From Xenophilus aerolatus (GTDB taxonomy: Bacteria > Pseudomonadota > Gammaproteobacteria > Burkholderiales > Burkholderiaceae_C), in assembly GCA_030418545.1 (NCBI GenBank), contig QAIB01000002.1, positions 1 through 64,000 on the forward strand: 64,000 nt of DNA, written 5' to 3'. Under the pieces are notes generated by a model. That model worked only from the letters and a program-made list of their open reading frames with translations. It was not told the DNA's origin and did not search any database. This document shows, one piece after another, positions 6,089 to 60,990 of this stretch (positions are counted from its first letter, which is position 1; each line of letters starts with the position of its first letter). Both the position numbers and the translations under genes were made by a program.

Positions 6089-6161
6089 GTCACGTTCGTG
6101 ACGAATTCGGGCACAGCGCCCGGTGGACGGGCGCTGCAGGCCGATTGCACTTTGCCCCTTC
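6089..6161 (+). repeat. Palindromes and a partial copy of the dispersed GATAGC-type element
   Basis: GTCACGTTCGTGAC (6089-6102) is a small palindrome. CAGCGCCCG (6114-6122) pairs perfectly with CGGGCGCTG (6128-6136), followed by CAGGCCGATTGCA, which matches the right half of the elements at 18361-18420 and 60923-60990. The left GCTAY mini-hairpin of those elements is missing. It sits between two convergent genes and may act as a bidirectional transcription stop. Confidence 0.55.
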
Positions 6162-18336: not shown

Positions 18337-18360
18337 GGAAAGTTCTCCTGACAGGGTGAT

Positions 18361-18420
18361 GAATGAAATCGGCCGGCGACGCCCGCCGGTATTGGGCGAG
18401 CAGCTATCTTTTCGATAGCA
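18361..18420 (-). repeat. Dispersed palindromic element, GATAGC type (copy B)
   Basis: On the minus strand it reads GCTATCGAAAAGATAGC (18403-18419, a 6-bp hairpin), then CTGCTCGCCC, an imperfect GC-rich hairpin, then CGGCCGATTTCATTC. The same order of parts occurs at 60923-60990 and, with variation, at 27308-27373, 43043-43100 and 52427-52487. It lies in the 92-bp gap between the RidA-like and transglutaminase-like genes. Confidence 0.7.
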
Positions 18421-18428
18421 AATGCGAG

Positions 18429-25908: not shown

Positions 25909-26047
25909 GGGTTGAGGCTCGGGTGCTTGTTATGGGTACGGTCCGCGCTGTGGCGCGGCCGACCGGCGCCATACTAGCCGACAAGCCAAGCAAGGAATGC
26001 GCCACGACAGCGTCATGGTGCCGTGCCTGACGCGGAAGGTTCAAGGG

Positions 26048-28564
26048 ATGGATCGAGGGCAAGGGGAGGGCGCGCCAGCGGCGCCGCAGATCGACGAGGC
26101 CGAGGCGCTGGCCATGGAAGGCCGGCGAACCGCCTGGCGTGGCTTCGCCCTGCTGGCCGGCAGCGTGGCGGGTGCGGCGCTGCAACTGCAGCAGCCCGCG
26201 CTGTGGGGCTGGCCGGTCTACGCGACGGTCGTGCTGCTGGGCCTGCTGGCTGCGGCGCTGCCCTTGCGGCGGCGTCGCCGCGTCGGCCTCGTGGCGGTGG
26301 GCCTGGTGGCGGGTCTGGCGCTGGGCTTCGGCGCCACGGGCGGACGGGCGCTCGCCTACCTGGCCGATGCCCTCGATCCGGTGCTCGAGGGCCAGGACAT
26401 CCGCGTGGTCGGCGTGGTGGCGCAGATGCCCCAGCGCAACGAGACCGGCGTGCGCTTCCGCTTCGATGTCGACGAAGTCCGCCCGGTCGGCGGCGCATCG
26501 GCCGGGCCGCCACCAAGGCTGCCGCCCCGGCTGGCGTTGGGCTGGTATGCCGCGGACACCGGGGCCTGGTCGCGCGGTGCCGACGAAGGCGCCGCTGCGC
26601 GCACGGTGGAGCTGCCGCAGGTCCGCGCCGGCCAGCGCTGGGCGTTCACCGTGCGCCTCAAGGCGCCGCATGGCAACCGCAACCCCCACGGCTTCGACTA
26701 CGAGCTGTGGCTGTGGGAACAAGGCATGCAAGCCACGGGCTATGTGCGCACCGGCACGGGCGAGGCGGCGCCCGAGCTGCTGGGCCGCGGCTGGTCGCAC
26801 CCGGTGGAGCGCGCCCGCGAGGCGGTGCGCGCGGGCATCGACGCGCAGGTGGCCGACCGGCGCCTGGCCGGCGTGATCGCGGCGCTGGTCACGGGCGACC
26901 AGGCCTCGATCGAGCGGGCCGACTGGGACATCTTCCGCGCCACCGGCGTGGCCCACCTGATGAGCATCTCGGGCCTGCACGTGACGATGTTCGCCTGGCT
27001 GGCGGCGGCAGTGGTGGGCTGGCTCTGGCGGCGCAGCCCACGCCTGCTGCTGCGCTGGCCGGCGCCGCATGCCGCGCTGGTGGGCGGCGTGGGCCTGGCG
27101 GCGCTGTATGCGCTCTTCAGCGGCTGGGGCGTGCCTTCGCAGCGCACGGTGTGGATGCTGGCGCTGGCCGCGCTGCTGCGCCTGTCGGCCCGGCGCTGGC
27201 CCTGGCCCTTCGCCTGGCTGGCCGTGTGCGCGGGCGTGGTGGCGCTCGACCCGTGGGCGCTCATGCAGGCCGGCTTCTGGCTCAGCTTCGTCGCCGTGGG
27301 GGTGCTGTTTGCTACGGATTCAGGAGCGCCTCGCGCAGGCAGGACGTGCGCCGCAGCCCGTTTGAGTTCAAAGCTTTGGCATCTGCTGCGCGAGCAGCTG
27401 ATCGTCACGCTGGCGCTCGCGCCGCTGTCGCTGCTGCTCTTCCAGCAGCTGTCGCTGGTCGGGCTTCTGGCCAATGCGGCGGCGATCCCGTGGGTCACGC
27501 TCGTGGTCACGCCGCTGGCCATGCTGGGCATCCTCTGGCCGCCGCTGTGGCAGGCTGCGGCCTGGGCGGTGCAGGCCCTCGGGTGGGGGCTGCAGGCGCT
27601 GGCCGTGCTGCCCGGTGCCACGGTGTCGACGCCCGCGCCGGCCCTGTGGGCGGCCATCGCCGGCGTCGCGGGCGGCCTGCTGATCGCCATGCGCCTGCCG
27701 CTGCCGATGCGGCTGCTCGGCCTGCCGCTCATCGCGCCGGTGCTGCTGTGGCCAGCGACCCGGCCGCCGGTCGGCGAGTTCGAGCTGCTGGCCGCCGACG
27801 TGGGCCAGGGCAATGCCGTCATCGTGCGCACCGCCACGCACGGCCTGCTCTACGACGCCGGCCCACGCTACAGCCTCGAGAGCGATGCCGGGCACCGCGT
27901 GCTGGTGCCCTTGTTGCGCGCCGAGGGCGTGGCGCTCGACACCGTGGTGCTGAGCCACCGCGACAGCGACCACACCGGCGGCGCCGCGGCCGTGCTGGCC
28001 ATGCAGCCGCAGGCCACGCTGCTCAGCTCGATCGAGGCCGGGCACCCGCTGCAGGCGCTGCGGCCCGCGGTGCGCTGCGAGGCCGGCCAGCAGTGGGACT
28101 GGGACGGCGTGCGCTTCGAGGTGCTGCATCCCGTCGCGGCCGATTACGGACTTCCGTCGGCCAAGCCGAACGCACTGTCCTGCGTGCTGCGCATCGGCAA
28201 TGGACGGTCGACCGCGCTGCTGGCCGGCGACATCGAGCGCGCGCAGGAAGCGGCGCTGGTCGGCCGCAGCGCCGAGGGCGCCCTGCGCGCCGACGTGCTG
28301 CTGGTGCCTCACCACGGCAGCAAGACGTCTTCGAGCCCGCTGCTGCTCGACGCGGTCCGGGCGCGGCTGGCCCTGGTGCAGGCGGGCTATCGCAACCGCT
28401 TCGGCCACCCCGCGACGCCCGTGCGCGAGGCCCACGTCGCCCGCGGCACGACGGTGGTCGACAGCCCGCATTGCGGCGCTGCCCGGTGGTCGAGCCGCCT
28501 GCCTGCCCAGGTGCGCTGCGAGCGCCACGCCGAGCCGCGCTACTGGCAGCACCGCGTGCCTTGA
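26048..28564 (+). CDS. comEC: ComEC/Rec2-family DNA-uptake channel protein
   Basis: 838 residues. The start at 26048 is chosen for the GGAAGG ribosome-binding site at 26034-26039. Domain order: N-terminal membrane segments, an OB-like periplasmic domain, the Competence membrane domain (ATGVAHLMSISGLHVTMFAW), then a metallo-beta-lactamase domain with LSHRDSDHTGG (H637) and LLVPHHGSKTS. It should form the inner-membrane pore that takes up single-stranded DNA in natural transformation. Residues about 420-442 are encoded by a palindromic repeat copy (27308-27373), located in a linker between membrane helices, and remain in frame. Confidence 0.9.
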   Translation: MDRGQGEGAPAAPQIDEAEALAMEGRRTAWRGFALLAGSVAGAALQLQQPALWGWPVYATVVLLGLLAAALPLRRRRRVGLVAVGLVAGLALGFGATGGRALAYLADALDPVLEGQDIRVVGVVAQMPQRNETGVRFRFDVDEVRPVGGASAGPPPRLPPRLALGWYAADTGAWSRGADEGAAARTVELPQVRAGQRWAFTVRLKAPHGNRNPHGFDYELWLWEQGMQATGYVRTGTGEAAPELLGRGWSHPVERAREAVRAGIDAQVADRRLAGVIAALVTGDQASIERADWDIFRATGVAHLMSISGLHVTMFAWLAAAVVGWLWRRSPRLLLRWPAPHAALVGGVGLAALYALFSGWGVPSQRTVWMLALAALLRLSARRWPWPFAWLAVCAGVVALDPWALMQAGFWLSFVAVGVLFATDSGAPRAGRTCAAARLSSKLWHLLREQLIVTLALAPLSLLLFQQLSLVGLLANAAAIPWVTLVVTPLAMLGILWPPLWQAAAWAVQALGWGLQALAVLPGATVSTPAPALWAAIAGVAGGLLIAMRLPLPMRLLGLPLIAPVLLWPATRPPVGEFELLAADVGQGNAVIVRTATHGLLYDAGPRYSLESDAGHRVLVPLLRAEGVALDTVVLSHRDSDHTGGAAAVLAMQPQATLLSSIEAGHPLQALRPAVRCEAGQQWDWDGVRFEVLHPVAADYGLPSAKPNALSCVLRIGNGRSTALLAGDIERAQEAALVGRSAEGALRADVLLVPHHGSKTSSSPLLLDAVRARLALVQAGYRNRFGHPATPVREAHVARGTTVVDSPHCGAARWSSRLPAQVRCERHAEPRYWQHRVP
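27308..27373 (+). repeat. Dispersed palindromic element inside comEC (copy C)
   Basis: It begins GCTACGGATTCAGGAGC (27311-27327), the decayed counterpart of the 17-nt mini-hairpin of the other copies, and continues GCGCAGGCAGGACGTGCG and CCCGTTTGAGTTCAAAG. Against the minus-strand copy at 43043-43100 the shared columns include TTGCTAC, AGCG, GCGCAGGC, GACG, GCGC and GCA in the same order and spacing. It encodes about 22 residues rich in Ala, Arg and Ser without a stop. Confidence 0.7.
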
Positions 28565-39536: not shown

Positions 39537-40428
39537 GCCACAGTCTGAGCGAAACAGGGCCGCAGCGCGCGCCCACCCTGCACGGGGCGCTATCGTTCGA
39601 TAGCGCCCCGTGTTCCTTGCGTGGATCGGCGGCGCTCCGGTCCTCGTTCGGTGAGCGCAGGTGCACGCGCATGCCCTCTTGTCCGGGCGCCAGGTCGGCG
39701 CGCAGCGTCAGCGCCGGAATGTCGTAGTCGCCGCCGTTCTGCGCCCGGAAGGGCAGGGGCGCCGTGGTGGCCAGCGTGTCCAGGCGCTGCGCCAGCTCGG
39801 CCTGCGTGCGCTGCAGCCGCTCGGCGTCCATGCGGCTGCTCTGGTAGACCACGAAGGGCGGCAGCACGTCGAAGCCCGGGTAGTGCAGGATGCCGTGCTG
39901 GATCGGGAACAGCAGCTCGTCCATCGGCCCGTTGATGCCTCGCGGGTCGTAGTGCGACGCCCACCCGCCGGTGGTGACGACCAGCATGGCGCGCTTGCCG
40001 GCCATCACGCCTTCGCCATAGCGCTCGCCCCAGCGTTGCTCCGAATGCTCTCCCACGCCGTAGGCGAAGCCGTGGGCGTACACGCGGTCCACCCAGCCCT
40101 TGAGCCGCGCCGGCATCGAGAACCACCACATCGGGAACTGCAGGATCAGCACGTCGGCCCAGCGCAGCTTGTCCTGCTCCGCGGCGACGTCGGGCGACTG
40201 CCGGCCGCTGGCGAAAGCGCGTTGCGAATCGTGCATGGGGTGGAAGGGCGTGCCGGCCTCGCGCGCCGGAAAGTCCTCGGCGTCGAGCGAAGCCTTCCAG
40301 CGCATCGCGTGCAGGTCGGAAACCTGGACCGTGTGCCCGGCCGCTTCGAGGTGCTCGCGCATGAAGCGCGCAAGGGTGCCGTTGAGGGAGCGTTCTTCAG
40401 GGTGTGCGTGGACGAGCAGGATGTTCAT
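39505..40428 (-). CDS. Flavodoxin-fold NAD(P)H quinone oxidoreductase with read-through C-terminal tail
   Basis: 307 residues. Residues 1-258 are a normal NQO1/MdaB-like flavodoxin-fold reductase: NILLVHAHPEERSLNGTLAR at the N-terminus, LILQFPMWWFSMPARLKGW for FMN and dimer contacts, and TTGGWASHYDPRG. It should reduce quinones with NAD(P)H. After about residue 258 (GMRVHLR) the frame continues about 49 residues through a 15-bp perfect palindrome (39581-39612) and into the end of the alpha-E gene. This tail has no family resemblance and looks like loss of the original stop codon. It is divergent from the LysR gene at 40509. Confidence 0.85.
   Translation of the reverse strand: MNILLVHAHPEERSLNGTLARFMREHLEAAGHTVQVSDLHAMRWKASLDAEDFPAREAGTPFHPMHDSQRAFASGRQSPDVAAEQDKLRWADVLILQFPMWWFSMPARLKGWVDRVYAHGFAYGVGEHSEQRWGERYGEGVMAGKRAMLVVTTGGWASHYDPRGINGPMDELLFPIQHGILHYPGFDVLPPFVVYQSSRMDAERLQRTQAELAQRLDTLATTAPLPFRAQNGGDYDIPALTLRADLAPGQEGMRVHLRSPNEDRSAADPRKEHGALSNDSAPCRVGARCGPVSLRLWLSALAPGSPG
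39581..39612. repeat. Perfect 15-bp palindrome containing GCTATCG/CGATAGC
   Basis: CACGGGGCGCTATCG (39581-39595) and CGATAGCGCCCCGTG (39598-39612) are exact reverse complements with two bases between. The centre GCTATCGTTCGATAGC (39589-39604) matches the mini-hairpin of the dispersed elements. It lies 45 bases after the alpha-E stop and inside the quinone-reductase frame. There is no U-tract, but the stem is strong enough to stall or protect transcripts from both sides. Confidence 0.8.
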
Positions 40429-42220: not shown

Positions 42221-43033
42221 CTAGTGCGGTGACTTGAGCGGCAACTTGAGCGGCAACTTGAGCGGCGTCAGCGCCCAAGGGCTCAGCGGCTTGCCGAACA
42301 GGTCCTTGAACTGCACGCCCATCGCCGCCACGCCCCAGGCGTTGCGGCGCACGAAGTCCCAGCGCTGCTGTTGCAGGTCGGCGGCATAGCCGGCCCAGTC
42401 GGCGTGATGCGATTGCAGGGCATGCACCGCGGGCGCCAGCAGGGTGCGGCCTGCGTCGGCCGACAGTGCGCCGGTTTCGATGCCGCACAGCAGCAGATTC
42501 AGGCGCCAGCACAGCCGGGCCGATGTTTCCGCGGTCCACTCATGCGGTGCATCGAGCGGGGCGTCCAGCAGCAGGGTCGCGAGGCTCGCGAAGTCGTCGA
42601 AGGGCAGCGCTTCGCTGGCCGCCTCGCGCACCTGGGCCCGCCACTCGTTCAGCAGCTGGACGGCATGGGCCTGTGCCTGTGGCGGCAGGTGCCCCGGCTC
42701 GTACAGGCTCCAGCCATCGAAGCGCCGTGTCAACGCGGGGATGGGCATGGCCAGGACGATGGAGCGGATGGGCTGCGCCAGCGCCACGGCCAGGCGCAGC
42801 ACCGGGTCCTGCTGCGCGACCCGGCCTTGGATGCGCTCCAGCAGGGCCAGATCGTCCTTCTGCGCGTCCCGCCAGGCGAACACCAGGATGACCCACAGCG
42901 TGGCCAGCAGGCCACCGACGACCAGGCCCACCGCGCCCTTCCAGAGGCAGGCGAAAAAAGCCAGGGCGGCCAGTGCGCCGAGCAGGGACCACGCGAGCGC
43001 GCGGGCCAGCGGCAAAGGGCGGATGGCTGTCAT
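42221..43033 (-). CDS. Hypothetical inner-membrane protein with PLKL repeat tail
   Basis: 270 residues, not recognised. Two hydrophobic segments near the N-terminus (about residues 12-30 and 33-53: ALAWSLLGALAALAFFACLW, then AVGLVVGGLLATLWVILVFAW) anchor a soluble helical domain. The last residues PLKLPLKLPLKSPH are encoded by a 12-bp tandem repeat. It converges on the zinc-ribbon gene with a 12-bp gap and is separated from glpK by a dispersed palindromic element. Function unknown. Confidence 0.75.
   Translation of the reverse strand: MTAIRPLPLARALAWSLLGALAALAFFACLWKGAVGLVVGGLLATLWVILVFAWRDAQKDDLALLERIQGRVAQQDPVLRLAVALAQPIRSIVLAMPIPALTRRFDGWSLYEPGHLPPQAQAHAVQLLNEWRAQVREAASEALPFDDFASLATLLLDAPLDAPHEWTAETSARLCWRLNLLLCGIETGALSADAGRTLLAPAVHALQSHHADWAGYAADLQQQRWDFVRRNAWGVAAMGVQFKDLFGKPLSPWALTPLKLPLKLPLKSPH
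42232..42267. repeat. Three tandem 12-bp repeats (ACTTGAGCGGCA)
   Basis: Unit ACTTGAGCGGCA occurs three times in a row (the third copy ends in GCGT in place of GGCA). On the minus strand it encodes LPLK units at the C-terminus of the membrane protein. Twelve-base units keep the frame when copy number changes. Confidence 0.85.
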
Positions 43034-43042
43034 GGTGCGAGG

Positions 43043-43100
43043 AAATGATGCCTGCAGCGCCCGTCGCGCCTGCGCAGGACGCTATCAAAACAGTAGCAAT
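43043..43100 (-). repeat. Dispersed palindromic element (copy E)
   Basis: On the minus strand: GCTACTGTTTTGATAGC (43081-43097), then GTCCTGCGCAGGCGCGACGG and GCGCTGCAGGC, ending CATCATTT. AGCGTCC and GGGCGCT can pair across the middle. It is in the 85-bp gap between glpK and the membrane-protein gene and is the best intact match to the copy inside comEC. Confidence 0.7.
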
Positions 43101-43118
43101 TGCACCCCGCTCGCCGTG

Positions 43119-49726: not shown

Positions 49727-51778
49727 TCAGGGTGTGGACGACACCACGCTTGCCGCAGCCGATGCCGCCGGCCAGCGCAGGCGGCGGAACTCCGCGCGCA
49801 GTGCCGGCAACCCGGCGGCCGGGTCGGGCGCATAGCGCTGGGCCTCCAGGCGCAGCAGCCAGTCGCGCTGCGCCGCGCTGGCTTCGCTGCCGAATCGCTC
49901 CGCCAGCAGTTCGGCCATCCGGCGCGGCGCGGCGTGGGGGGCCACGGCAATGCCGGCGCGCGCGAGCCGCTTGCGCGCCTCGGCCAGCAGGCGCAGCCAG
50001 GGGTCGACGCGGCTGCGCTCCCACAGCGTCCATGCCGCCCCGCCCAGGCTGGCGGCCACCAGCAACAGCAGCAGCACGTAGGCCAGGTCGGCCAGGCTGG
50101 GGCTGTCGAAGCCCAGGTTCTTCAGCAGGTCGAGCTGGCGGCTCTGCGTGTAGTTCAGGACCCACTGGTTCCAGCCGTTGTTGACGGCTTCCCAGGCGGC
50201 GCGCAGGTTCTGCACGAGCGTGGGGCTCATCGCGCCCACTGCGCCGGCCAGGAAACCGGGCGTGGGCGCCAGGCGCCGGAACTGGCCGATGCGGTCGGGC
50301 GAGATCGAGGCGGTGGGGTCGACGCGCACCCAGCCGCGGCCTTCTTCCCACACCTCGGCCCAGGCATGGGCGTCGCTGTTGCGCACGGTCCAGTAGCCGT
50401 CGACGCCGTTGAGCTCGCCGCCCTGGAAGCCGGTGACGATGCGCGCCGGCACGCCGGCTGCCCGCATCAGCACCACGAAGCCCGACGCGATGTGCTCGCA
50501 GAAGCCCGCCTTGCGGTCGAACCAGAACTCGTCGGCCGTCTGGTCGCCGTACACGCCCGGTTCCAGCGTGTAGCTGTAGCCGCCGGTGCGCAGGCGCTGC
50601 TGCGCGGCCCGCACCAGCAGGGGCACGAAGTCGGCGCCGGCGGCCGAGGCGCGTGCTTCGGCCGCCATCTGCGCGGCGAGTTCGACGGTGCGCGGGTTGC
50701 TGCCCGGCGGCAGCGCGGTGTAGGCCTGCAGGCCCGGCAGGCGACGCGTGGGGCCGCTGTCGAAGTCGAGGTAGCTCTCGACGCGGTAGCGCAGCAGGTC
50801 GCCGACGGGGCGGCTGGTGAACCACTGCAGGTCGGGCGTCTGCGTGACGCGCAGGCCGGGCACCTCGGGCGCGTCGCGCGCCGCGTCGAGCGTGAGCAGC
50901 CAGGGGCGGTTGCTGGGCTCCATCGTGACGGCATAGCGCACCGGCTCGCCGCGCACGCGCAAATTGGCCGGCAGGAAGCCGCGCTCCCAGGGCTGTGGAG
51001 CGGTCCATTCGCGGCCGTCGAAGTTCGTCAGCACCGGGCCGCGGAAGTACAGGCGGTCGCGCGCGGGCGGGATGTCGCCGTCGAAGCGGATGCGGGCGGC
51101 GATGCCGTCGTCGAGCGCGAGCTGCGCGATGGCGCCCACCCGCATGGTGTTCGACAGACCGGTGCGGCCGGTCATGTTGTCGTTGGGCGTGCCCCACAGC
51201 GGCGCCAGCCGTGGGAAGAGCATGAAGAGCGCCAGCATGATCGGCGCGCCGGCCAGCGCCATCCAGCCTGCCGTGCGTGCGGCCTGCGACAACGGCGGCC
51301 GGCCCACCGGCATGTGCGCGTTGACCAGCGCCGTCAGCAGCCCCAGCAGCGCCAGCAGCATCGCGAAGGCGGTGGCGAGCGACTGCGAATAGAAGAAGTT
51401 CGTGAGCATCGCGAAGAAGCCCAGGAAGAACACGACGAAGGCGTCGCGGCGCGCGCGCAGCTCCAGCGTCTTGAGGGCCAGCAGCACCACCACCAGCGTC
51501 ACGCCCGCGTCCTTGCCCAGCAGCGTGCGGTAGCTGGCGAAGGTGCCCGCCAGCGCCAGCACCAGCAGCGCCACGCGCCACCAGCGGCTGGGCAGCGGCC
51601 GCGCCTGCACGGCCAGCACGCCGCGCCACAGCAGCACCGCCCCCGTCAGGCCGACGCACCACAGGGGCAGGTTGGGCGTCTGCGGCAGCACGATGAGCGC
51701 GATCACGCCGAGCAGGAACAGCGTGTCGCGCGTGTCGCGAGGCATCTCGCGCCGCAGCGTGGCCGGCGGCGTCAGCAT
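49727..51778 (-). CDS. TgpA-type transmembrane transglutaminase (DUF3488)
   Basis: 683 residues. Six or more N-terminal membrane helices (DUF3488, about 15-200) are followed by a periplasmic transglutaminase domain with C427 (GFCEHIASGF), H471 (SDAHAWAEVW) and D487 (RVDPTAS), then a single membrane helix (LADLAYVLLLLLVAA) and a cytoplasmic C-terminal domain. In Pseudomonas the homologue is an essential membrane protein of unclear substrate. The ATG (51778) overlaps the DUF58 stop by seven bases. Together with MoxR and DUF58 it forms the usual three-gene module. Confidence 0.92.
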   Translation of the reverse strand: MLTPPATLRREMPRDTRDTLFLLGVIALIVLPQTPNLPLWCVGLTGAVLLWRGVLAVQARPLPSRWWRVALLVLALAGTFASYRTLLGKDAGVTLVVVLLALKTLELRARRDAFVVFFLGFFAMLTNFFYSQSLATAFAMLLALLGLLTALVNAHMPVGRPPLSQAARTAGWMALAGAPIMLALFMLFPRLAPLWGTPNDNMTGRTGLSNTMRVGAIAQLALDDGIAARIRFDGDIPPARDRLYFRGPVLTNFDGREWTAPQPWERGFLPANLRVRGEPVRYAVTMEPSNRPWLLTLDAARDAPEVPGLRVTQTPDLQWFTSRPVGDLLRYRVESYLDFDSGPTRRLPGLQAYTALPPGSNPRTVELAAQMAAEARASAAGADFVPLLVRAAQQRLRTGGYSYTLEPGVYGDQTADEFWFDRKAGFCEHIASGFVVLMRAAGVPARIVTGFQGGELNGVDGYWTVRNSDAHAWAEVWEEGRGWVRVDPTASISPDRIGQFRRLAPTPGFLAGAVGAMSPTLVQNLRAAWEAVNNGWNQWVLNYTQSRQLDLLKNLGFDSPSLADLAYVLLLLLVAASLGGAAWTLWERSRVDPWLRLLAEARKRLARAGIAVAPHAAPRRMAELLAERFGSEASAAQRDWLLRLEAQRYAPDPAAGLPALRAEFRRLRWPAASAAASVVSSTP

Positions 51779-52743
51779 GTGGCCAGCACCTCCAGGCAGG
51801 CGCGCCGGTGTGCCTCGCCTTGCGCCGGCGCGACCGTGCGGCTGCCGATGCGCAGGCCGTAGTCCAGCCCGAGCCGGTCGGCCTGCAGCACCCAGGCCGT
51901 GAGGCGCGAGATGCGGCCTTCCAGGTCGGCCAGCCCGGTTGCCTGCGCGTCGAGCCACAGCTCGTGGCGCTGGGCCTGCTCGGCATCGCGGCTCACCAGT
52001 TCGTCGGAGCCCGCGGCCTGGGCGCGGGCGGCCTTCTTCCAGACGACGAGCTTGAGCGGGTCGCCGCGCCGGTACGGGCGCACGCCGTCGTATTCGCCGG
52101 CGCCTTGCGTCGTGGCGGCGGCGATGGCGTCGCCCTCGCGCGGCTCTCCGGGGGGCAGCGGCGGCGCGTGCGCCTCGGGCGCGGGGTAGACGAGCATCTT
52201 CGCGGCCGGCCGCCAGACGGTCCAGACGCGGAAGGTGCCCAGCGGGAAGCGCGTCTCGGCCGTCAGCACCGGCACCGGGTGCAGGCCACGCCGTGGCGGC
52301 TGGAAGGCGATCTCCACGGTGGACGTGCCCTGGGCCGGCACGTCGGTCCAGGCCCAGTGGCCGCTGCCGCGCACGGCCAGCCCGATGCCGTAGCGCGCGC
52401 GCCGCCGCTCGTTGTGCAGCACCACGCGAAAAACGGCTGCAGCGCCCGCGTACTGGGCGTCGGGCGCTATCAGATGCATAGCGAGTCCGCGCAGGGTGGC
52501 GTGGCACACGTGCATGCCCACCGCCACGCTGCCGGCCAGCAGGAAGGTCAACAGGTAGCCGAGGTTGAGCTGGTAGTTGATCGACGCGACCAGCAGCACC
52601 AGCAGCGTCGCGCCCAGCATCCAGCCTGCTGCCGTGGGCACGATGTAGACGTTGCGCTGGGTGAGGGCGATCTGGTCCGAAGGCGGCCGGCGCGAGAGGA
52701 ACCAGCCGTCGATGCGATGGCGCAGTGCTGCCGCCGGGTTCAT
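51772..52743 (-). CDS. DUF58 (vWA-like) protein of the MoxR-TgpA module
   Basis: 323 residues. Two membrane segments (GWMLGATLLVLLVASINYQL and LTFLLAGSVAVGMHV, residues about 40-80) are followed by the DUF58 region with EYDGVRPYRRGDPLKLVVWK, the family signature. It works with the MoxR ATPase as a predicted chaperone or maturation pair for TgpA or another envelope protein. Residues about 86-105 (AMHLIAPDAQYAGAAAVFR) are encoded by a sequence matching the dispersed palindromic element, yet match the family pattern in length, so the element seems to have replaced normal sequence. It starts 8 bases after moxR. Confidence 0.9.
   Translation of the reverse strand: MNPAAALRHRIDGWFLSRRPPSDQIALTQRNVYIVPTAAGWMLGATLLVLLVASINYQLNLGYLLTFLLAGSVAVGMHVCHATLRGLAMHLIAPDAQYAGAAAVFRVVLHNERRRARYGIGLAVRGSGHWAWTDVPAQGTSTVEIAFQPPRRGLHPVPVLTAETRFPLGTFRVWTVWRPAAKMLVYPAPEAHAPPLPPGEPREGDAIAAATTQGAGEYDGVRPYRRGDPLKLVVWKKAARAQAAGSDELVSRDAEQAQRHELWLDAQATGLADLEGRISRLTAWVLQADRLGLDYGLRIGSRTVAPAQGEAHRRACLEVLATC
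52427..52487 (-). repeat. Dispersed palindromic element inside the DUF58 gene (copy F)
   Basis: Minus strand: GCTATGCATCTGATAGC (52466-52482), then a hairpin with arms CGGGCGCT (52461-52468) and AGCGCCCG (52441-52448) around a 12-base loop, then GCAGCCGTTTTTCGC. The order and spacing match copies B, C, E and G. It is read through in frame. Confidence 0.65.
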
Positions 52744-52751
52744 GAACGCAC

Positions 52752-53684
<933 letters not shown>

Positions 53685-60847: not shown

Positions 60848-60922
60848 GGTAGGCACTGCGGGCGCCCTGAGCAATTCGCGCCCCCGCCGCGCCGGCCTTG
60901 CGGCTGGCGCAGATTCGGATAT

Positions 60923-60990
60923 CAGCTGCGAAATCGATAGCTGCTGGCGCACGCAGGACGGGCGCTGCGGCCCGATTTGGCTTTGAAATC
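60923..60990 (+). repeat. Dispersed palindromic element (copy G)
   Basis: GCTGCGAAATCGATAGC (60925-60941) is the mini-hairpin counterpart, followed by TGCTGGCGCACGCAGGACGG, GCGCTGCGGCCCGATTT and GGCTTTGAAAT. It matches copy B (18361-18420) in its CTGCT and GCCGATTT-like parts and copy E in GCAGG...GACGGGCGCTGC. Confidence 0.7.

Follow-up and report, generated by a model that had tools for sequence, protein, structure and literature searches.

The comEC gene in the 64,000-nucleotide stretch of Xenophilus aerolatus DNA analysed here (the window) raises the question of how a piece of palindromic repeat comes to lie in frame within a membrane protein gene, and whether it arrived there by simple insertion. 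The first-pass annotation, made from the letters of the window, had likened the piece to an intergenic sequence elsewhere in the window and had read it as a case of protein evolution by repeat insertion in the DNA-uptake channel.

The repeat family and its copy in comEC

The repeat was described by a model, R1, built from 29 aligned copies of the same genome (G000), namely 25 of the 30 loci found by pattern (L036, L044, L045, L058 and L059 were left out) and four copies of the window, with the comEC copy excluded; its E-values are rough. The repeat is 65–72 bp long and dispersed; its consensus is about TTGCTATnGAATCGATAGCTGCTnGCGCCCGCnnGGCGGGCGCTGCAGGCCnnTTTnGCTnGnAA and contains two short inverted repeats. 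R1 finds seven copies in the window including that in comEC (Table 1), the best other match scoring 14.5 bits when partial and opposite-strand matches within the seven copies are disregarded. Both the comEC stretch and the intergenic copy to which it had been likened match the model. The ComEC linker is thus encoded by a member of a dispersed family of palindromic repeats. Two of the intergenic copies in the window (43032–43103 and 18354–18425) lie directly upstream of an ATG, as do copies at L031 and L046.

Genome-wide, the core GATAGCNGCNNGCGC occurs with at most one mismatch at 430 places, compared to 95 for a reversed control, and an R1 search of G000 returned at least 150 matches. In 400 kb of contig C11 of the same genome, 54 matches correspond to 49 repeat places after merging of five opposite-strand overlaps, which by extrapolation gives a genome total of roughly 700 copies. 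The GC content of the copies is 0.61 vs 0.70 in a genome sample. An Rfam scan of the 64-kb window gave no match at the gathering score, and a strict pattern made from the whole consensus found no match. The seven predicted stem pairs show no two-sided changes within the window's genome, and the case for stems comes from the comparison between genomes.

Besides the Competence domain (residues 297–566), window ComEC has matches to the Pfam domains DUF4131 and Lactamase_B. As the first-pass annotation stated, the repeat copy keeps the frame and contains no stop. Counted from the ATG at 25997 it covers residues ~437–460, and the previously given residues 420–442 are correct if translation starts at the alternative ATG at 26048. 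The proposed position between membrane helices was borne out by an AlphaFold2 model (27 sequences, mean pLDDT 76.1), in which residues 440–451 form a loop between helices 425–439 and 452–482, with pLDDT values below 50 at residues 442–449. The repeat copy is thus predicted to encode a floppy ComEC loop joining two membrane helices.

An ungapped profile ranked the linker first among the 2582 positions of the gene, with a score of 44.6 vs at most −24.0 elsewhere. When the linker was recoded synonymously according to the gene's own codon usage (20000 trials), the scores reached a maximum of 37.1 with a mean of −3.5. With uniform synonymous codons (again 20000 trials) the maximum was 45.5, just over the observed value, which indicates that much of the repeat signal sits in the linker peptide itself. 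Taken together, the two recoding tests show a signal carried by peptide and codons alike.

Table 1 Coordinates of comEC and of repeat copies (window positions unless a locus is given).
Feature	Position	Strand	Basis
comEC, 855 aa; start at 26048 also possible	25997..28564	+	ORF and Pfam Competence, 185 bits
Repeat copy in comEC, residues ~437–460 (FATDSGAPRAGRTCAAARLSSK)	27305..27376	+	R1 47.4 bits, E 1.3e-14, outside training set
Repeat copy	60919..60990	+	R1 71.3 bits, in training set
Intergenic copy named by the first-pass annotation, just upstream of a minus-strand ATG	43032..43103	-	R1 64.6 bits, in training set
Intergenic copy, with orthologous copies in G002 and G013	18354..18425	-	R1 59.7 bits, in training set
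Copy in frame in conserved ORF 51775–53628 (-), without Pfam match	52417..52488	-	R1 53.4 bits, in training set
Repeat copy with GGGGCGCTATCG..CGATAGCGCCCC palindrome	39540..39610	-	R1 45.5 bits, outside training set
Weak, shortened repeat copy	6102..6159	+	R1 25.9 bits, outside training set
Second-place ComEC copies	L151:10051-10122, L135:9368-9439, L124:10072-10143 and 10 other genes	-	Antisense, middle at residue 86; strand given for the named loci

Copies in ComEC of relatives and in other genes

For the comparison with relatives, 30 loci (the window's genome and its relatives) were combined with the best 80 of at least 583 named loci, which afforded 108 distinct ComEC genes after L091 (identical to L002) and L116 (identical to L006) had been dropped. 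With carriers defined by a linker score of at least 10, the set comprised 29 carriers, 18 intermediate genes and 61 non-carriers. Of the 108 genes, 45 had their highest score at the linker, 38 of them with an identical offset, and among the carriers the nucleotide offset of the copy was equal in 23 of 29, across genera. The remaining six carriers (L009, with the copy 8 codons later, and L123, L142, L152, L153 and L169) have it at other offsets, so that some copies may be separate arrivals. Carriers were found among Acidovorax, Rhodoferax, Polaromonas, Xylophilus and the window's genus, and the Variovorax and Ramlibacter rows of the 108 genes contained three intermediate genes and no carrier. 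On a ComEC tree calculated without the linker columns, the carrier state requires 17 changes, at least 13 of which are forced by starred branches; shuffled carrier states gave 25.7 changes, and none of 500 shuffles was as low as 17.

If the copy were a plain insertion, a gap of about 20 residues would be expected in non-carriers, as the first-pass annotation had predicted. No such gap was found: the linker has a median length of 36 residues in carriers (32–82) and 32 in non-carriers (27–71), and in the non-carrier G005, of the same genus as the window, it is shorter by one residue. These lengths rule out a simple insertion of ~20 residues, and of the proposed protein evolution by repeat insertion, the repeat-like character of the linker in peptide and codons stands while the plain insertion does not. 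Orthologues of the same length without resemblance to the element do occur, in part of the family but not in all of it. The linker of the repeat-poor relatives examined showed no repeat likeness. The GC content at third codon positions (GC3) was 0.40 in the linker vs 0.83 in the gene for the 29 carriers and 0.82 vs 0.85 for the 61 non-carriers, a contrast with some circularity, as the repeat score itself defines the carriers.

In 13 of the 108 genes a copy in antisense orientation occupies a second place, in each case with its middle at residue 86 (Table 1). In the AlphaFold2 model of window ComEC, itself without a copy there, this place would map to the end of helix 72–87 and the following loop. 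The TTCAGGAGC (S-G-A) form is common at the first place, where 27 of the 47 genes classed as carriers or intermediates have [S/P/L]GA, and GGAGC is rare in copies elsewhere (4 of 148); selection on the peptide could explain this bias. The form was considered as a shared derived mark of one ComEC insertion and rejected, as it was seen in UvrD linkers of several genera too; since it may be favoured in coding copies generally, we did not take it as proof of a single insertion.

Coding copies were surveyed in 464 kb (C11 1–400000 and the window), which contain 56 repeat places. Nine of these lie in open reading frames with coding-like flanks, seven of them in conserved or Pfam-matched frames: ComEC, UvrD, Ndh, a MobA-like transferase, a TonB receptor, a POR/DUF6537 protein and ORF 51775–53628; the other two (L172 2605 and L190 3905) are putative assignments from the GC3 listing. 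The copy in ORF 51775–53628 aligns without gaps to repeat-free orthologues (G003/G005). A further copy (66.5 bits) lies inside the AIRS_C domain of an AIRS/AIRS_C protein that is ThiL-like. Intergenic sites and the reading frames of unrelated genes thus contain one and the same palindromic repeat, and the idea that the DNA-uptake channel is a special setting was not upheld, given the copies in UvrD, Ndh, the ThiL-like protein and further genes. In the TonB receptor (L181:6253-8958, plus strand) the copy is located at the start of the plug domain (GATDSIAPTAALAG). At L044:869-1936 (plus strand), a frame with no Pfam match, a copy apparently encodes a signal peptide of lipoprotein type (MKTLVATFLIAACAGCAGAAG), which may be chance. 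The RsmB-like gene at L045, with a Methyltr_RsmB-F match in Pfam, matches the short pattern, but the copy is weak in its remaining part, and the match may be due to chance.

Inspection by eye of the UvrD linker before the tudor domain revealed a likeness to the repeat in the aligned genomes that are rich in it and none in those that are poor in it, with the exceptions of G008 (decayed) and G060 and G028 (weak); G027, which is part of this alignment, stands outside the copy-number counts given below. Ndh proteins without a copy are mostly 2–7 residues shorter than carriers, and the overall length difference ranges from 0 to 7 residues. The repeat-rich G063 has an Ndh without copy, and in the repeat-poor Variovorax genomes G066 and G067 the segment is as long as in carriers and, in G067, partly repeat-like.

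Genome dialects and decay in place

The stems are spelled differently in different genomes, with GCGCCCGC..GCGGGCGC in G000, GGCCGGCG..CGCCGGC in G033, AAGCCCAGG..CCTGGGCT in G060 (Xylophilus) and GCGCTT..AAGCGC in G061. Profiles of 7 to 48 copies per genome were made from unselected stretches for G000, G017, G028, G023 and G033, and from the best R1 matches for G060 and G061; those of G023 and G033 comprise seven copies each. Out of seven profiles, that of the own genome matched the ComEC copy best in five of seven cases (G000, G028, G033, G060 and G061), with mean permutation p values of 0.0004 for the whole copy and 0.0009 for the stem, and at most 0.0034 (7 copies per genome, 60 resamplings). 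The sister genera G033 and Xylophilus (L149) have the ComEC place and the linker length in common, while their stems differ, each resembling those of its own genome.

For UvrD, the own profile was best in three of five scored copies (G060 and G028 unscored), and for Ndh in four of four. Overall this amounts to 12 of 16 scored ComEC, UvrD and Ndh copies, or 10 of 14 if the G000 UvrD and Ndh copies, which belong to the G000 profile themselves (2 of its 48), are omitted. Mismatches were observed for G017 and G023, whose ComEC and UvrD copies fit another genome's profile better, and the Xylophilus UvrD copy, unscored and judged by eye, is not in the AAGCCCAGG dialect. We concluded that copies in ComEC, UvrD and Ndh at orthologous places in different genera tend to follow the dialect of their own genome.

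The presence of a ComEC copy goes along with copy number: each of the 16 genomes with at least 68 R1 matches, the scoring being capped at 150, has one or other of the two ComEC places occupied, and none of the ten genomes with 0–16 matches has a copy at either place. This is an association and not a test, because the genomes are related and were picked with knowledge of their linker status; G015 and G069, chosen as linker non-carriers, proved to carry the second-place copy.

The loss of the repeat could be followed in G008, which belongs to the clade of the window and other carriers and yielded 18 matches over 320 kb and another 3 over 80 kb, compared to 54 in 400 kb for G000, most of them weaker than those of G000. 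For 37 of the 56 G000 places (33 on C11, 4 in the window), both flanks could be located in G008. Of these 37, 25 are within 5 bases of the G000 length, five are lost (>40 bases) and seven differ by 7–49 bases; all 25 length-keeping places score below their G000 counterparts. Alignments were kept if the length change was at most 5, the own score at least 30 and the aligned element bases at least 55, which left 31, including 21 with G008. Identity across these 21 places is 0.802 for the elements and 0.905 for the flanks, missing elements being outside the means, and the changes comprise 131 AT>GC and 59 GC>AT. The peptides of G008 ComEC, UvrD and Ndh are largely retained. Nine G000/G008 comparisons by eye exhibited ragged losses or in-place decay and no precise empty site. 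Erosion of the family is thus accompanied by decay of copies at their original places. The ComEC copy is, however, only 0.83–0.84 identical between the repeat-rich sisters G002 and G013, with flanks at 0.95, and this faster divergence counts against a simple contrast between rich and eroding genomes.

Origin of the ComEC copy and relation to known repeats

Overall, the ComEC copy gives the impression of an old occupant of its place that has been rewritten on the spot, not of a recent simple insertion, and we consider it probable that an old copy has been kept in step with the other copies of the genome by in-place rewriting or re-insertion. The repeat, one of Comamonadaceae, is mostly located between genes, and one copy encodes the ComEC linker. 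This copy lies in frame in a loop that would tolerate change, so that the protein would accept the repeat, and the linker presumably has no special role in ComEC. The place would have been occupied long ago. Where the family is alive, the ComEC stem arms tend toward the dialect of the host genome, probably through a gene-conversion-like process that rewrites existing copies in place, or alternatively through re-insertion onto the old copy; where it erodes, the DNA drifts to GC-rich codons at unchanged linker length. Conversion by ordinary homologous recombination would be hard between 65-bp copies so different, and among the comparisons made we caught no conversion event and found no enzyme.

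A different origin would be a mobile, MITE- or REP-like element that inserts recurrently at one preferred ComEC spot and is then trimmed to linker length. The own-genome dialect of five of the seven ComEC copies, the six carriers with other offsets such as L009, the scatter of carriers over the ComEC tree (at least 13 of the 17 changes forced) and the mostly shorter copy-free Ndh proteins fit such a process. However, it would have to account for the common offset of 23 of the 29 linker carriers and the position at residue 86 in 13 of 13 second-place carriers, for the small gain in ComEC length (median 36 vs 32) and for the missing empty site in nine G000/G008 comparisons. A RAYT-type transposase likewise does not track copy number: 24 of 26 genomes, several of them repeat-poor, have a match to the Y1_Tnp domain (PF01797), and the repeat-rich G033 has none. 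Of 12 Y1 transposase loci scanned, 5 had a copy scoring at least 10 near the gene. On this balance we regard recurrent insertion as unlikely, and a REP/RAYT system was rejected because a cognate Y1 transposase is not correlated with copy number. G028 (L371, L395–L400) has 20 matches to the Y1 transposase, some whole and some broken, and each of the other 25 genomes at most one.

Even less likely, in our estimation, is a single ancient insertion kept by selection at the DNA or RNA level as a binding site or signal (nucleoid, RNA or uptake), with the specificity of its reader protein drifting by lineage. Orthologous places in ComEC, UvrD and Ndh over several genera would agree with such a signal, as would the AT>GC-biased decay in G008 and the genus dialects, which have a parallel in the DNA uptake sequences of Neisseriaceae (PMC3630211). 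It would nevertheless need coordinated point mutations of both stem arms in hundreds of copies, many of which are imperfect, and has no known reader protein. That a GC-rich alanine/glycine linker merely resembles the repeat by chance or composition, for which the best of 20000 uniform-codon recodings (45.5 vs 44.6) could be cited, is refuted by the E-value of 1.3e-14 from a model not trained on this copy, the rank-1 counts (45 of 108 genes, 38 at the same offset), the AT-rich linker codons in a GC-rich gene and the tendency of the stems toward genus dialects.

Palindromic repeats in frame are already known, from Rickettsia palindromic elements (RPEs) and intragenic REPs. RPEs are palindromic repeats in frame within unrelated genes, as are the copies described here, and have been described as insertions of about 150 bp (PMC10969869). 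In contrast, and judged by description, our copies measure 65–72 bp, the ComEC linker is lengthened by few residues, and the copies in genes tend toward genus dialects in place. The RPE-type trait of adding the element's length to the protein was not found for ComEC (36 vs 32), for the gapless copy at 52417 or for Ndh (0 to 7 residues). REPs of the GTAG/CGTC families share with our repeat that they are short dispersed palindromes, some of them in coding regions including DNA-repair genes (PMC3733652), whereas the present unit is longer, has two inverted repeats and shows no link to a RAYT transposase; the available text of that paper makes no mention of Comamonas, Delftia, Acidovorax or Betaproteobacteria. 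The beta-proteobacterial repeat element (BRE) occurs in Betaproteobacteria including Comamonadaceae, with some copies wholly within coding sequences; it is about 90 bp long, tandem in places, slightly GC-richer than the genome in Bordetella and present in at most 29 copies (PMC3110155). Our copies are set apart from this description by being dispersed, numbering in the hundreds and having a GC content of 0.61 in a 0.70 genome.

DNA uptake sequences (DUS) lie in genes too and are about 10–12 bases long. They resemble the present repeat, which differs in length, in having very many copies per genome and lineage dialects (PMC3630211). At the level of titles and abstracts, with subscription papers mostly outside, we found no description of this repeat family or of a dialect turnover of coding copies, and a literature query with the letters of the repeat gave no paper on bacterial repeats among the matches listed.

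The in-frame repeats of Rickettsia are regarded as insertions, whereas here coding copies at orthologous places tend to track the other copies of their genome. We tentatively raise the possibility, with considerable doubt, that the repeat is a driven, self-homogenising sequence, and that some copying or uptake-linked process rewrites old copies where they lie, genome-wide, genus by genus, also within conserved proteins. If this were true, segments of UvrD, Ndh and ComEC would be periodically respelled by a process unrelated to the protein. The finding opens the question of concerted evolution in place of short repeats inside proteins, and of what copies them, for which the rich, eroding and repeat-poor genomes within one genus provide a natural series to follow how proteins change after a repeat has been abandoned.
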